Below, piece by piece: positions 45,635 through 49,763 of a stretch of DNA of 64,000 nt. Numbering within the stretch: position 1 is the stretch's first letter; each line of letters opens with the position of its first letter. Origin of the DNA: Streptomyces cathayae (GTDB lineage Bacteria; Actinomycetota; Actinomycetes; Streptomycetales; Streptomycetaceae); assembly GCF_029760955.1 (NCBI RefSeq), contig NZ_CP121682.1:2108001-2172000 (forward strand). The letters are read 5' to 3'. A model generated the notes under the pieces. That model was given only the letters and a program-made list of their open reading frames with translations. It searched no databases and was not told where the DNA came from. Both the position numbers and the translations under genes were made by a program.

Positions 45635-46545
45635 GTTCCATCCTGTACGACGCCCAGGGACCTCGCGCCAAGCGGCGGAACATCGTTTTCACGGTGGTCT
45701 TCCTGGCTGCCTTCGCCGCCCTGCTGTGGTGGGTGCTCAGCACCCTCAACGACAAGGGCCAGCTGGAATGGTTCCTGTGGAAGCCGTTCTTCACCAGCGG
45801 CGAACCGTGGTCCACGTACATCTGGCCGGGTCTGCAGAACACTCTGAAGGCCGCCGCGCTGTCGGTGATCATCGCGCTGCCGCTCGGTGCCCTCTTCGGC
45901 ATCGCCCGGCTGTCGGACCATGCCTGGATCCGCGTCCCGGCCGGGATCGTGGTCGAGTTCTTCCGGGCCATCCCCGTCCTGGTCCTGATGATCTTCGGTC
46001 TCGCCCTGTTCGCCGAGTACACCAGCGTCAGCTCCGACGACCGTCCGCTGTACGCGGTCGTCACGGGTCTGGTGCTGTACAACGCCTCCGTCCTCGCGGA
46101 GATCGTGCGCGCCGGCATCCTGTCCCTGCCCAAGGGCCAGGCCGAGGGAGCGATGGCGATCGGCCTGCGCAAGAACCAGGCGATGCGGCTGGTCCTGCTG
46201 CCGCAGGCGGTCACCGCGATGCTCCCGGCCATCGTCAGCCAGCTCGTCGTCATCGTGAAGGACACCGCCCTCGGCGGCGCCGTCCTCACCTTCCCCGAGC
46301 TGCTCGCCGCGGCCAACACGATGAGCGGCTACTACGGCGCCAACGTCATCGCCAGCCTCACGGTGGTGTCCGTGCTCTTCATCGCGCTCAACTTCGCCCT
46401 CACCTCCTTCGCCTCCTGGCTCGAGGCACGGCTGCGCCGCAGCAAGCGCAGCACGGGCGCGGTTCTCGGCGCCGACGACGTCGACGACCTCAACGCAGGC
46501 GAGGTCGGTGGCGCGCAGAAGACCGGCACGGGCGGCACCGCCTGA
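45631..46545 (+). CDS. gluD: Glutamate ABC importer, permease GluD
   Basis: 304 residues. A first membrane segment (19-36) precedes the permease core; the EAA loop is GQAEGAMAIGLRKNQAMRLVLLPQA. The C-terminal 40 residues are hydrophilic (SKRSTGAVLGADDVDDLN) and probably cytoplasmic. ATG 45631 overlaps the gluC stop (ATGA). Last gene of the operon, followed by a strong terminator. Confidence 0.94.
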   Translation: MSSILYDAQGPRAKRRNIVFTVVFLAAFAALLWWVLSTLNDKGQLEWFLWKPFFTSGEPWSTYIWPGLQNTLKAAALSVIIALPLGALFGIARLSDHAWIRVPAGIVVEFFRAIPVLVLMIFGLALFAEYTSVSSDDRPLYAVVTGLVLYNASVLAEIVRAGILSLPKGQAEGAMAIGLRKNQAMRLVLLPQAVTAMLPAIVSQLVVIVKDTALGGAVLTFPELLAAANTMSGYYGANVIASLTVVSVLFIALNFALTSFASWLEARLRRSKRSTGAVLGADDVDDLNAGEVGGAQKTGTGGTA

Positions 46546-46561
46546 CGCACACCCTGCTGTA

Positions 46562-46608
46562 CCGACATGGCTGTGGCCCGCCCTTCCGGCGGGCCACAGC
46601 CATGTCGG
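46562..46608 (+). terminator. Terminator of gluABCD
   Basis: A perfect 21-bp stem with a 5-base loop (CTTCC), 17 bases after gluD. A left arm of CCGACATGGCTGTGGCCCGC gives its identity. Confidence 0.85.
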
Positions 46609-46843
46609 AGTGCGGGACGGCACCGTCGGCGCGCGAAAATCATCCCGGTACGGGCCGGGCCTGTGTGACGAGCAGTCAAGTGGTGTGGCGGAACCGGACC
46701 GGTTTCATGATCGCCGCTCGCGCCCGTCACTTGACGCAAGCACCGGCAGTAGGTTGCATACGTTCTGTGATCGCGCACCCTGCTCCACCGTCCTGTTCCT
46801 TCCTGTCCCCCGGGACGTCACTTCGAGCAGGGAGCGCCGCGCC

Positions 46844-48502
46844 GTGGACCCGGTGATCATCGTCGGAGCGGGGCCCGTCGGGCTCACGCTCGCCCTGGCG
46901 CTGGCGCGTCAGGAGGTGCCGTGCGTGGTCCTCGACGAGGGTCCGGGCAAGGACGAACCGCGTCCTGCCCGGTCGGTGGTGCTGCGCGAGGACACCACGG
47001 CGCTGCTGGAGCGGCTGACCGGTGCGCCACTGGCCCGGGCCGGCTCCCGTTGGGCCGGATGGCGGTCGATGCGGCGCAAGCAGGTGACACACGAGGTCGT
47101 GTTCGACGCCACCGCTCCCGCACCCCTGCACATCGCCCAGCACGTCCTCACCGGCGCCCTGCGCGCGGCCCTCACCCGTGAACGGCTCGTCGAGGTCGCC
47201 GTGGACAGCCGTCTGGACTCCCTGGAACAGGAGCCCTCCGGTGTCACCGCGCACACCCGCGGTCCCAGGAGCACGTGGTGGCGCGGCAGTTACCTGGTCG
47301 GCTGCGACGGCCCCCGCTCCACCGTGCGCAAGCTCCAGGACATCCGCTTCCCCGGGCGCACGGCGGTGGAACGTCACGCCGTGGCCGCACTGCGTACGGA
47401 ACTTCCCCGGCCCGGCGAAGCGTTGCTGCACCGGATGCCGCCGTGGCGCGCCTCCGGCCCCTTCGCCGGGGAGGTCACCGCGCGTCCGCTGCCGGACAGC
47501 GTGTGGCGTCTGGACTGGCTGCTGCCGCCGGGCAAGGACCTGGTCACCCCCGAGCTGCTGCTGACCCGGATCCGGGAGACCCTCGCCGGCTGGGCCGGCG
47601 GCCCGACTCCCCCGTACGAACTGCTCGACACCGGGGTCCACACCGTCCACCACCGGCTCGCCCGGCGCTGGCGGGCGGACCGTGTGTTCCTCGCCGGGGA
47701 CGCCGCGCATCTGCTCGGCTCGCTGGGCACGCACGGGCTGGACGAAGGGCTTCGCGACGCCGACAACCTCGCCTGGAAGCTGGCTCTGGCCTGGCACCAC
47801 GGCCACCACGAAGCGCTGCTCGACAGCTATCAGGCCGAGCGGCGCGCGATCGTCTCCGCCCGGCTGCGCGCCGCCGATCAGGCGCTGCCGCTGCTGCGGG
47901 GCGGTGGAGGGCTGCGTTCCTACGTGCCCGGTTCCGGCCGCGGTCATGACGCGCTCCTGGTGGACGGCCACCTGGGGCAGGGGCCACTGGGAGCGCCGGG
48001 CGGGCACCCCGGATCACCCCTCGCGCCCCGGAACCTCGAGGGCGCGGTCCCCGTCGACACGCCCCTCGGGGCGCCGGTCACCGATGTGCGGGTCACAGCG
48101 GAGGACGGCACCTTCGTCCGGCTGCGGGACCGGCTCGGCCGGGGTGCGCTGCTGGTGGTGCTGATCGCACCGGGTACCGGGGTGTGGGAGCGCAGGCACT
48201 GGGTGTCCGCCGGGATCATGCCCCGGCTGGCGGCGGCCGTGGCGGCGCTGCCGCATCCGGCCGAGCTGCTGGTCGCGGAGAGCTACCCGGGGGCGGCGGC
48301 CCACACCGTGCTGCTGGTACGTCCCGACGGTCACCTGGTCACGGCGCTCGGTGGGGTCCGTCCGGCGGACCTGTACGCGGCGGCCGAAACGGTGCTCGGC
48401 GGACCGGCGGACGCGGAAACGGCGGGAACAGCAGAGACGGCGGGAACGGCGGAAACAGCGGGGACGGAGGCCCGGACGGCGGCCGGAGCCGGATCGCGCT
48501 GA
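46844..48502 (+). CDS. FAD-dependent aromatic-hydroxylase-type monooxygenase
   Basis: 552 residues of the p-hydroxybenzoate hydroxylase superfamily. The dinucleotide fold VGAGPVGLTLALALAR is at 7-22, the second FAD motif is GCDGPRSTVR and the third FLAGDAAHLLGS. A thioredoxin-like C-terminal domain, common in phenol hydroxylase relatives, may span about 400-520. The tail has three Ala-Glu-Thr-Ala-Gly-Thr repeats. GTG 46844 follows GGGAGC. Such enzymes act on phenols, antibiotics or polyketides; no cluster genes adjoin it, so the substrate is unknown. Confidence 0.88.
   Translation: MDPVIIVGAGPVGLTLALALARQEVPCVVLDEGPGKDEPRPARSVVLREDTTALLERLTGAPLARAGSRWAGWRSMRRKQVTHEVVFDATAPAPLHIAQHVLTGALRAALTRERLVEVAVDSRLDSLEQEPSGVTAHTRGPRSTWWRGSYLVGCDGPRSTVRKLQDIRFPGRTAVERHAVAALRTELPRPGEALLHRMPPWRASGPFAGEVTARPLPDSVWRLDWLLPPGKDLVTPELLLTRIRETLAGWAGGPTPPYELLDTGVHTVHHRLARRWRADRVFLAGDAAHLLGSLGTHGLDEGLRDADNLAWKLALAWHHGHHEALLDSYQAERRAIVSARLRAADQALPLLRGGGGLRSYVPGSGRGHDALLVDGHLGQGPLGAPGGHPGSPLAPRNLEGAVPVDTPLGAPVTDVRVTAEDGTFVRLRDRLGRGALLVVLIAPGTGVWERRHWVSAGIMPRLAAAVAALPHPAELLVAESYPGAAAHTVLLVRPDGHLVTALGGVRPADLYAAAETVLGGPADAETAGTAETAGTAETAGTEARTAAGAGSR
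48413..48466 (+). repeat. 18-bp tandem repeats at end of monooxygenase gene
   Basis: Three in-frame 18-base units (GCGGAAACGGCGGGAACA and two variants) encode AETAGT three times. Likely a slippage-prone tail. Confidence 0.8.
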
Positions 48503-48564
48503 GGCGCCGGGCCCGGACGATCCGTCTCCGCATGCTCCCGGGTGGGCCCGCATGGTGACGGCGA

Positions 48565-48594
48565 GTTGATCCCGTGTGCGTCGTCGTGGTGTAC
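48565..48594 (+). promoter_or_regulatory. Predicted promoter of leader peptide and cysteine dioxygenase operon
   Basis: TTGATC (48565-48570) and TGTACT (48589-48594) are 18 bases apart. Transcription would begin about eight bases later, at the GTG of the leader peptide, giving a leaderless message. Confidence 0.5.
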
Positions 48595-48602
48595 TCCGGT
48601 CC

Positions 48603-48689
48603 GTGACCGACACCTGTGTGCGCCTGTGGCGGAGGGTCCATATGGACCTCGTCCGCTACGCGGGCTGCGTGTGTCGCCCGTCCTGCTGA
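48603..48689 (+). CDS. Cysteine-containing leader peptide upstream of cysteine dioxygenase
   Basis: A 28-codon ORF beginning GTG 48603. The C-terminal part reads LVRYAGCVCRPSC before TGA, with four cysteines in all (positions 5, 22, 24 and 28). An in-frame ATG at 48642 has an ideal GGAGGG site five bases upstream and would give a 15-residue product. The RRVHMDLVR motif is that of short putative leader peptides found upstream of sulfur genes in Streptomyces. In mycobacteria, polycysteine uORFs attenuate cysteine dioxygenase operons in response to cysteine. A similar attenuation is inferred here. Confidence 0.65.
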   Translation: MTDTCVRLWRRVHMDLVRYAGCVCRPSC

Positions 48690-48777
48690 ACTCGCGTTCT
48701 CCCTTTCCCGCGCGCCGCTCGCCGCTTCCACGCCGCTGCCGTGCGCGCTCCGCGAACCTTTCTTCAGGACGGTGCAC

Positions 48778-49338
48778 GTGTCTGCCTCCCCTGTTCTCCC
48801 CTCGTCCCCTGCGGGCTCCCCCTCTGCGGGCTCTCCCTCTGCTCCCGGCCCTTCCCAGGCAGAACTCCTCGACTTCGTACGGCACGTCGCCGCCGACGCC
48901 GAGCTGGTCGCCTCGCTTCCGATCGATCCGGAGGGCCGCACCTGGGTACGGCTCGACGGACCCGGCGGCAGTGAGGCCTGGTTGATCGGCTGGCCGCCCG
49001 GCACGGGCACCGGCTGGCACGACCACGGAAAATCCCTCGGTGCCTTCATGACCGCGGCGGGGGAGCTGCGGGAGAACTCGCTCGCGGTGCGGCTGCCCAC
49101 CGACGGCTGGAAGACGCTGGAACTGAACGCCGGCGTGGACCGGGAACGCCGGCTGACGGCCGGTGCGGGCCGCGCCTTCGGCCGGTATCACGTGCACGAG
49201 GTGCTCAACGAGTCCCCCGTCCGGCACGCGGTCTCCGTCCACGCCTACTACCCGCCCCTGCCCCTGATGCGCCGCTACAGCCGCAGCGGCCAGACCCTGC
49301 GTCTGGAGCAGGTCGAGCGCCCGGCGGACTGGCAGTGA
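48778..49338 (+). CDS. Cysteine dioxygenase family protein
   Basis: A cupin-fold iron enzyme, 186 residues, predicted to oxidise the cysteine thiol to the sulfinate. Iron ligands are His81 and His83 (WHDHGK) and His138 or His140 (YHVHEV). The first 25 residues are Ser/Pro/Ala-rich. GTG 48778 is eight bases after AGGA; another in-frame GTG at 48772 is too close. The rhodanese gene overlaps its stop by four bases. The leader peptide upstream fits a role in cysteine homeostasis. Confidence 0.88.
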   Translation: MSASPVLPSSPAGSPSAGSPSAPGPSQAELLDFVRHVAADAELVASLPIDPEGRTWVRLDGPGGSEAWLIGWPPGTGTGWHDHGKSLGAFMTAAGELRENSLAVRLPTDGWKTLELNAGVDRERRLTAGAGRAFGRYHVHEVLNESPVRHAVSVHAYYPPLPLMRRYSRSGQTLRLEQVERPADWQ

Positions 49339-49763
49339 GCGGGACACCCGAGCGGGCTGCCGGTGCCCCCGGGATCGACGCACTGCTGGAGCGGGTACGC
49401 GCGGGCTACACGCGGATCGAGGCGGTACCCGCGTACGAGGCCGCCCGCGACGGGGAAGCGCTGCTGGTCGACATCCGGTACGCGGCCCTGCGCGACCGGG
49501 ACGGCCTCATCCCCGGCGCCCTCGTCGTCGAGCGCAACGAGCTGGAGTGGCGTCTCGACCCGCGAGGCAGCCACCGCCTCCCCGAGGCCACCGGTCACGA
49601 TCTGCGCGTTGTCGTGATCTGCGACGAGGGGTACGCCTCCAGTCTGGCCGCGGAGTCCCTGCACCGGCTGGGGCTGCACCGGGCCACCGACCTGATCGGC
49701 GGTTTCCAGGCCTGGCGCACGGCAGGTCTGCCGGTGCGGGCGCCGGGCGGGAACCCTCAGTAG
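49335..49763 (+). CDS. Rhodanese-like sulfurtransferase
   Basis: 142 residues with a single rhodanese domain. The catalytic loop is CDEGYASS with Cys96, and GGFQAWRTAGLPV closes the domain. It overlaps cysteine dioxygenase by four bases (GTGA), so the pair is translationally coupled and probably processes sulfur from cysteine breakdown. Its 3' end overlaps that of recX by seven bases on the opposite strand. Confidence 0.9.
   Translation: MSGTPERAAGAPGIDALLERVRAGYTRIEAVPAYEAARDGEALLVDIRYAALRDRDGLIPGALVVERNELEWRLDPRGSHRLPEATGHDLRVVVICDEGYASSLAAESLHRLGLHRATDLIGGFQAWRTAGLPVRAPGGNPQ

Follow-up and report, generated by a model that had tools for sequence, protein, structure and literature searches.

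The dioxygenase-rhodanese operon of Streptomyces cathayae is preceded by a conserved leader ORF of 28 codons, in which a single one of four cysteine codons, the rare UGU of Cys24, is invariant among all leaders compared. The best explanation of this arrangement, to which we assign a probability of about 0.6, is that a leaderless leader peptide gates translation of the operon by way of a pause at UGU24 and an anti-Shine-Dalgarno sequence in the last codons of the ORF. In the resting RNA, codons 26-28 (CCGUCCUG) would pair with the dioxygenase Shine-Dalgarno sequence (CAGGACGG), assisted by a short helix past the leader stop codon. A ribosome dwelling with the UGU of Cys24 in its A-site would cover CCGUCC and thus partly free the Shine-Dalgarno sequence, which would not be freed with Cys22 in the A-site. 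Most likely the ribosome would pause because Cys-tRNA is slow to reach this one codon, which is read by wobble, and the conserved nascent chain RRxHxDLxR, then located in the exit tunnel, may contribute to it.

The window, i.e., the whole stretch of 64,000 nucleotides that was analysed (contig NZ_CP121682.1), provides the coordinates used throughout. The relevant features are as follows:

48566-48595, forward strand: promoter-like element TTGATC-N18-TGTACT, assigned on the basis of conservation, with a transcript start expected at or adjoining 48603
48603-48689, forward strand: leader ORF of 28 codons with a GTG start and leaderless geometry, matching NF042934
48627-48656, forward strand: predicted hairpin over codons 9-18 (WRRVHMDLVR), burying the internal GGAGG/ATG
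48631-48644, forward strand: internal Shine-Dalgarno sequence GGAGG with ATG at codon 14, judged not to be a conserved start
48666-48668, forward strand: Cys22 codon TGC, Cys in 107 of 109 leaders (TGC in 100, TGT in 7)
48672-48674, forward strand: Cys24 codon TGT, the proposed sensing codon, TGT in 109 of 109 leaders and, in the family register Asp+9, in 64 of 65
48678-48685, forward strand: candidate anti-Shine-Dalgarno sequence CCGTCCTG in codons 26-28
48692-48696, forward strand: 5' arm (TCGCG) of the predicted helix directly past the leader stop
48751-48755, forward strand: 3' arm (CGCGA) of this helix, before the Shine-Dalgarno sequence
48765-48772, forward strand: dioxygenase Shine-Dalgarno sequence CAGGACGG, complement of 48678-48685
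48778-49338, forward strand: cysteine dioxygenase type I gene (PF05995, E 8.3e-47)
49335-49763, forward strand: rhodanese-like gene (PF00581, E 3.2e-12), sharing 4 nt with the end of the dioxygenase gene

The leader ORF, its family and its occurrence

The leader is situated 5' of two sulfur-metabolism genes on the same strand, encoding a CDO_I-type dioxygenase, which matches five solved sequences of which four are named cysteine dioxygenase, and a rhodanese. The next gene after the rhodanese gene is recX, on the opposite strand, and the ORF beyond it is probably recA, as read from its sequence. On the upstream side, an ORF for a FAD-dependent monooxygenase (46508-48502) carries a low-complexity Ala-Gly-Thr-Glu tail (GTAETAGTAETAGTEA). 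No match to the leader family was found near the second dioxygenase gene of the same genome.

On re-reading of 48566-48777, all elements listed in the preliminary description were recovered: the promoter-like pair TTGATC (48566-48571) and TGTACT (48590-48595), separated by an 18-nt spacer and followed after a further 7 nt by the GTG at 48603; the 28-codon ORF, encoding (M)TDTCVRLWRRVHMDLVRYAGCVCRPSC* with cysteines at residues 5, 22, 24 and 28; and the 88 nt (48690-48777) between the leader stop and the dioxygenase GTG at 48778. A generic sigma-70 scan, which requires A at the second position of the -10 hexamer, called no promoter at this leader, and the promoter assignment is instead based on the conservation of the element across leaders. 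TTGA is present in all 109 leaders, the spacer measures 17 nt in 74 of them, 18 nt in 34 and 15 nt in one, and the -10-like hexamer conforms to TNNACT in 108 (TTCCCT in the other). The first ATG or GTG is positioned 6-7 nt past the -10-like element in 106 of the 109 leaders and 3 nt past it in the other three, while the start codon, taken as that 12 codons before His13, is GTG in 57, ATG in 47 and other in five, leaders of different length being counted as 'other'. Because of this start spacing and the exchange between GTG and ATG at this position, the leaderless ORF is well supported; the leader is likely translated without a 5' untranslated region, from a transcript that, judging by promoter spacing, would start at or near 48603.

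The leaders compared were gathered in several searches. Among 61 genomes of the genus, 53 possess an orthologous dioxygenase (identity at least 66%), the other eight having no match or a weak one; all 53 loci were read, and the leader is present at 52, the exception (L068) being a locus at which the N-terminus of the dioxygenase is replaced. A wider search returned 118 matching genomes, of which 40 were taken by hand, mostly the most divergent ones plus seven of the closest, and a further search added 23 loci. This gave 116 loci in total, 111 of which fit the leader pattern; setting aside a duplicate (L083) and a leader of another type (L090) left 109 distinct leaders of the Streptomyces type for comparison. 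Genomes from outside Streptomyces are scarce in this dioxygenase sample (two in one search, two in another). Five loci gave no pattern match (L068, L089, L091, L092 and L093), although divergent leaders are visible by eye in L092 and L093. At L089 (genome G076) the dioxygenase match comprises the C-terminal piece only (query residues 118-186) and there is no leader, as if both had been lost together. L090, from family f35 of the class, combines a distant dioxygenase (40-45% identity) with a leader-like ORF, RRIHLDLLLTQGSVC, which has UGU at Asp+9 and extends in another frame past the likely dioxygenase start. In L036 the spacer between the leader stop and the Shine-Dalgarno sequence contains a run of approximately 40 C, possibly an assembly fault.

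Residues W9, R10, R11, V12, H13, D15, R18, C24 and S27 are identical in all 109 leaders; the search pattern requires His, Asp and some of their neighbours, so that the invariance of these is partly by construction, while Cys24 and the codons were not required. The peptide encoded in the window scores 37.1 bits against the NCBIfam profile NF042934 (cis_reg_atten, 'putative leader peptide'; cut-off 27, E 1.6e-9), and the features of this type that it carries, R11, D15, L16, R18 and C24, each occur in 108 or 109 of the 109 leaders. Against NF042933 (leader_Ms5788A) it remains below the cut-off (17.9 bits versus 45), and an Rfam scan of 48300-49000 at E values up to 1 returned no element. This score, together with the presence at 52 of 53 orthologous loci, sets the leader apart from a chance ORF. 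Judged by its sequence, the ORF encodes a conserved leader peptide with cysteines that belongs to a known attenuator-type family, and its kind is thus already known.

The cysteine codons and the fixed UGU

The preliminary description further proposed that ribosome stalling at the cysteine codons sets expression of the operon by cysteine supply, and named conservation of these codons in other Streptomyces as a check. The interpretation is supported in part. Cysteine is found at residue 24 in 109 of 109 leaders and at residue 22 in 107, but at residue 28 in 98 and at residue 5 in just 31, and Cys5 and Cys28 were accordingly ruled out as sensors. A conserved cysteine leader with leaderless geometry and a plausible pausing switch stands. 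Cys24 is the sole invariant cysteine and is encoded by the rare UGU in every one of the 109 leaders. Third positions do vary elsewhere in the same leaders; Tyr19, for example, is TAC in 56 and TAT in 51. UGU would be decoded by a single tRNA-Cys through wobble.

The same codon is fixed beyond the dioxygenase leaders. A set of 65 other family leaders was assembled from 60 loci, hand-picked from the best-scoring places in the class with dioxygenase loci excluded, and five leaders of the present genome, using a pattern that requires R, D, L, R and a Cys at any place but does not specify the Cys codon. R, D, L and R are present in 65 of 65, as the pattern demands, and Asp+9, the equivalent of Cys24, is Cys in 65 of 65, encoded by TGT in 64. 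The other cysteine codons from Asp+3 onwards in these peptides are TGC in 35 cases and TGT in nine (9/44), which corresponds to a Fisher p of 5e-19 for TGT enrichment at Asp+9, the rows not being independent owing to shared ancestry; at Asp+2 the codon is TGC in 34 and TGT in two. As background, 36 long ORFs of the window with high GC3 contain 157 Cys codons, 29 of them TGT; in 48 such ORFs from the family loci, 6 of 93 are TGT. Arg at Asp+3, a residue that the pattern requires, is encoded by six different codons across the 65 leaders. TGT at Asp+9 also occurs in L090, L092 and L093, which are dioxygenase leaders from outside the genus. The one family leader with TGC at the sensing position, L178, is located 5' of a nitrite/sulfite reductase-type gene. 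Loci L134 and L143 each contain two family leaders close together. All of these have TGT at the sensing position, and only the first leader of each locus entered the set.

These data permit a wider proposal, which is considered somewhat less likely than not: the actinobacterial leaders of NF042934 would be single-codon cysteine sensors, in which the nascent R, D, L and R slow the ribosome at UGU (Asp+9), and the dioxygenase leader would add an anti-Shine-Dalgarno tail, placing the enzyme under a sulfur-shortage regulon or reversing the sensor towards excess. If this is true, one fixed codon, and not a run of codons, measures Cys-tRNA. A rare synonymous codon that stays fixed, across a family, at a fixed distance from a conserved nascent chain would then be an unusually clear natural experiment on the joint setting of a metabolic sensor by codon choice and contacts in the exit tunnel.

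Proposed masking of the Shine-Dalgarno sequence and ribosome position

Codons 26-28 are exactly complementary to the dioxygenase Shine-Dalgarno sequence. This paired arrangement (spacer of 55-85 nt) was found at one place in the window and in none of 100 shuffles, and the best fold of 48603-48800, in which GUCCUG pairs with CAGGAC, has a z-score of -4.12, with none of 200 shuffled sequences being as stable. The Shine-Dalgarno sequence is CAGGACGG in 100 of the 109 leaders, CAGGAACGG in six and CCGGACGG in two, while L026, which is off-pattern, has CAGGGACGG. Where an 8-nt motif is present (102 rows), 783 of 816 leader-Shine-Dalgarno cells can pair; for 30 leaders hand-picked from the 109, pairing reaches 89.2% of cells versus 27.5-53.8% when the partners are slid by one to three positions. 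With G-U pairs allowed, a helix of at least five pairs can form in 109 of 109 leaders, and one of at least six in 97; the second helix, between the sequence after the leader stop and that before the Shine-Dalgarno sequence, reaches the score threshold in 99 of 109. Among leaders with CCT in place of CCG, six carry CAGGAACGG and retain the pairing (UUCCUG:CAGGAA), whereas six others retain CAGGACGG and have a mismatch. Outside the genus, CCGUCCG of L092 can pair with CGGACGG in a shifted register, and no clear leader-Shine-Dalgarno pairing was found in L093.

Covariation adds nothing to this picture. In the alignment of the 30 hand-picked leaders, double substitutions were found at none of the eight pairs of the leader-Shine-Dalgarno helix, 141 of 500 sets of shuffled partners scored as high in paired cells, i.e., there is no excess for this helix, and RNAalifold returned no common structure. 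Approximately 25% of synonymous recodings pair equally well. When each leader is compared with swapped partners, none of 200 swaps reaches the observed mean for either helix, a result that is confounded by relatedness and in which the margin is small (19.9 versus 19.3 and 12.1 versus 11.5). Read from sequence, the leader-Shine-Dalgarno helix is thus based on complementarity and constraint, without covariation support.

To model the effect of ribosome position, the ribosome was taken to reach 12 nt from the start of its A-site codon, and just the RNA beyond that point was folded. Averaged over 108 RNAs, the Shine-Dalgarno sequence is predicted to be unpaired with a probability of 0.054 when no ribosome is present. 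Placing codon 22 in the A-site leaves this at 0.055, whereas codon 24 gives 0.271 and the stop codon 0.300, and codons 26 and 28 give much the same opening as these two. In 37 RNAs for which the reach was varied, the rise from codon 22 to codon 24 is seen at 10, 12 and 14 nt and is less clear at 15 nt (0.131 to 0.281). The predicted opening is partial, the freed Shine-Dalgarno sequence being only about 0.3 unpaired, and when the anti-Shine-Dalgarno sequence is scrambled the free RNA reaches just 0.144. In these models, the invariant UGU would be the Cys codon at which pausing first clearly opens the gene. A family-wide rule of Shine-Dalgarno unmasking was also considered and was not found: in the 35 of the 65 other family leaders that passed a crude call of start and Shine-Dalgarno sequence, the same model gives no opening at UGU, the value rising in three and falling in two by more than 0.1 between Asp+7 and Asp+9. 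Because these 35 leaders show no step, the anti-Shine-Dalgarno tail appears to be specific to the dioxygenase leader.

Two other ways of regulating or reading this leader have to be weighed against masking. The C-rich, G-poor stretch past the leader stop could be a Rho site that is shielded by a paused ribosome, as has been suggested for mycobacterial cys leaders (Seliverstov 2005, PMC1262725, in the part consulted). Consistent with such attenuation, C exceeds G over the 70 nt past the stop in 109 of 109 leaders (means 0.46 and 0.26), and a classical intrinsic terminator is not apparent, with no terminator-like site at 48500-48900 and a longest T run between stop and Shine-Dalgarno sequence of 1 to 5 nt across the 109 leaders, reaching 5 in one. 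However, C-rich spacers are frequent in Streptomyces, the stretch past the stop is highly structured in the model, and an exact, conserved anti-Shine-Dalgarno sequence needs no Rho, so that we consider Rho-dependent control distinctly unlikely. The preliminary description also envisaged a dual start, with a leaderless GTG and an internal ATG preceded by a ribosome binding site yielding two peptides. The internal GGAGG (48631-48635) does lie 6 nt before the ATG at 48642, and 78 of 109 leaders have both elements (81 with GTG allowed). Yet codon 14, which is ATG in 84 leaders and GTG in four, is CTG in 17 and CTC in four, and GGAGG is kept in 20 of these 21. The element is moreover buried in the predicted hairpin of codons 9-18, the mean energy of which is -16.9 kcal/mol versus -11.0 kcal/mol for synonymous recodings, and which in every one of the 109 leaders is more stable than the average of 30 recodings of that leader. 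The use of AGG at codon 11 in 102 of 109 leaders, a codon that makes up 5% of Arg codons in window ORFs, could be cited for an internal start but is better explained by the hairpin. Given that 21 of 109 leaders have CTG or CTC at codon 14 and that the hairpin amounts to about -17 kcal/mol, the dual start was rejected as a conserved feature, and we regard two peptides from this ORF as very improbable.

The signal and the relation to known leaders

Under the proposed masking mechanism, pausing would switch the enzyme on, a consequence that the preliminary description did not raise. If the ribosome pauses for want of cysteine, a cysteine-degrading enzyme would be induced by shortage, which is physiologically unexpected; the enzyme would then have a role in sulfur scavenging, or else the pause would be due to an excess of cysteine. 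Shortage is ranked ahead of excess, with modest confidence, because the fixed slow codon points to tRNA supply. In the scavenging version, which is possible if on the unlikely side, the enzyme would be induced by shortage to release sulfite from a thiol other than free cysteine and would thereby join the sulfur-assimilation set. The company kept by other family leaders speaks for this: downstream genes were picked by codon composition and the proteins of 30 of 64 such ORFs were scanned by Pfam, of which 16 are plainly or plausibly of a sulfur type (NIR_SIR 6, rhodanese 4, ThiS 2, APS kinase, PAPS reductase, TauD and sulfatase), 13 fit by association only (ABC transporter parts 4, SDF symporter 3, DUF4395 3, luciferase-like monooxygenase 2, flavin reductase 1) and one, POR (L190), does not fit. 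On the other hand, NIR_SIR cannot separate sulfite from nitrite reductases, and the NCBIfam model that fits L006, L177 and L178 best, though below its cut-off, is that of a nitrite reductase. The protein itself is moreover a clear CDO_I with solved matches largely named cysteine dioxygenase, and a Streptomyces dioxygenase is reportedly active on cysteine.

The opposite sign could arise if, by analogy with arrest peptides, abundant cysteine or a product arrests the ribosome at UGU24 or at the stop codon, freeing the Shine-Dalgarno sequence. This would give the physiologically expected response, the enzyme being made when its substrate is plentiful, and is consistent with the invariant residues listed above other than Cys24 (His and Asp being required by the pattern), with the Arg at Asp+3 retained through six codons, and with the similar modelled opening at codons 24, 26, 28 and the stop. 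Feather induction also leans to excess: in Streptomyces SCUT-3, two dioxygenase genes are reported to be up 50.2- and 8.3-fold in feather medium versus LB (PMC7181669, in the part consulted), although the leader-bearing gene need not be one of them and the media differ in many other respects. Nevertheless, sulfur-assimilation genes, which are expected to answer shortage, are preceded by leaders with this motif and codon, and the fixation of a rare codon is more suggestive of tRNA supply than of a ligand; arrest by excess is judged unlikely, and a pause caused by scarce Cys-tRNA is what we infer with modest confidence. Whether the operon is on at scarce or at plentiful cysteine matters for how Streptomyces uses keratin and produces sulfite.

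The closest known relatives are the peptides of NF042934 themselves, to which the leader corresponds by a score over the curated cut-off, by an R..H.DL.R core with Cys at Asp+9 and by a sulfur gene downstream. NF042934 is, however, a protein profile without a mechanism, which cannot encode a fixed UGU codon or an anti-Shine-Dalgarno tail, and the target of the dioxygenase leader is catabolic.

In mycobacterial polycysteine leaderless short ORFs, the ribosome-binding site downstream is reportedly masked. The present leader resembles these in its leaderless geometry and in Cys codons near its end, and its downstream site may likewise be masked, a point on which complementarity and folding agree and covariation is absent. 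It differs in that CVCRPSC contains no two adjacent cysteines, i.e., there is no Cys run but one invariant UGU and a near-invariant Cys22, and in its target. Such ORFs are cited as a case of translation attenuation in PMC13236596, in the part consulted. The preliminary description had them attenuating cysteine dioxygenase operons; Shell 2015 (PMC4633059) names cysA2/Msmeg_5788, Rv0485/Msmeg_0932 and nirA/Msmeg_4527, and the word 'dioxygenase' does not occur in the main text as consulted.

Another likeness is to uORFC-8-2, which precedes cysS in Rhodobacterales and whose Cys codons are presumed to sense tRNA-Cys (PMC8632094, in the part consulted). That uORF has tandem Cys codons with UGC dominant, and a run of U compatible with an intrinsic terminator closes its consensus, whereas the present leader has a single UGU and no terminator was found at 48500-48900. 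It is nevertheless the nearest case to a fixed UGU, of which no statement was found for cysteine leaders in the parts consulted of the open-licence literature searched. The metL leader of S. lividans, called methionine-dependent in Table 4 of PMC8079986, ends in CMCRRMCAF, with three cysteines, and may be a cysteine leader. Within the portions of the literature consulted, described cysteine leaders have clustered or tandem Cys codons, and none combines a single fixed UGU in a fixed register with a matched anti-Shine-Dalgarno tail.

Beyond cysteine leaders, the arrangement recalls the regulatory nascent chains. TnaC is an arrest peptide that controls a catabolic gene and carries conserved nascent-chain residues at a fixed distance from its stall codon. 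By its sequence, the dioxygenase leader appears similar in its conserved residues in a fixed register, partly a product of how the search was constructed, and in its catabolic target; it departs from TnaC and other arrest peptides in that the fixed element extends beyond the residues alone to a codon.
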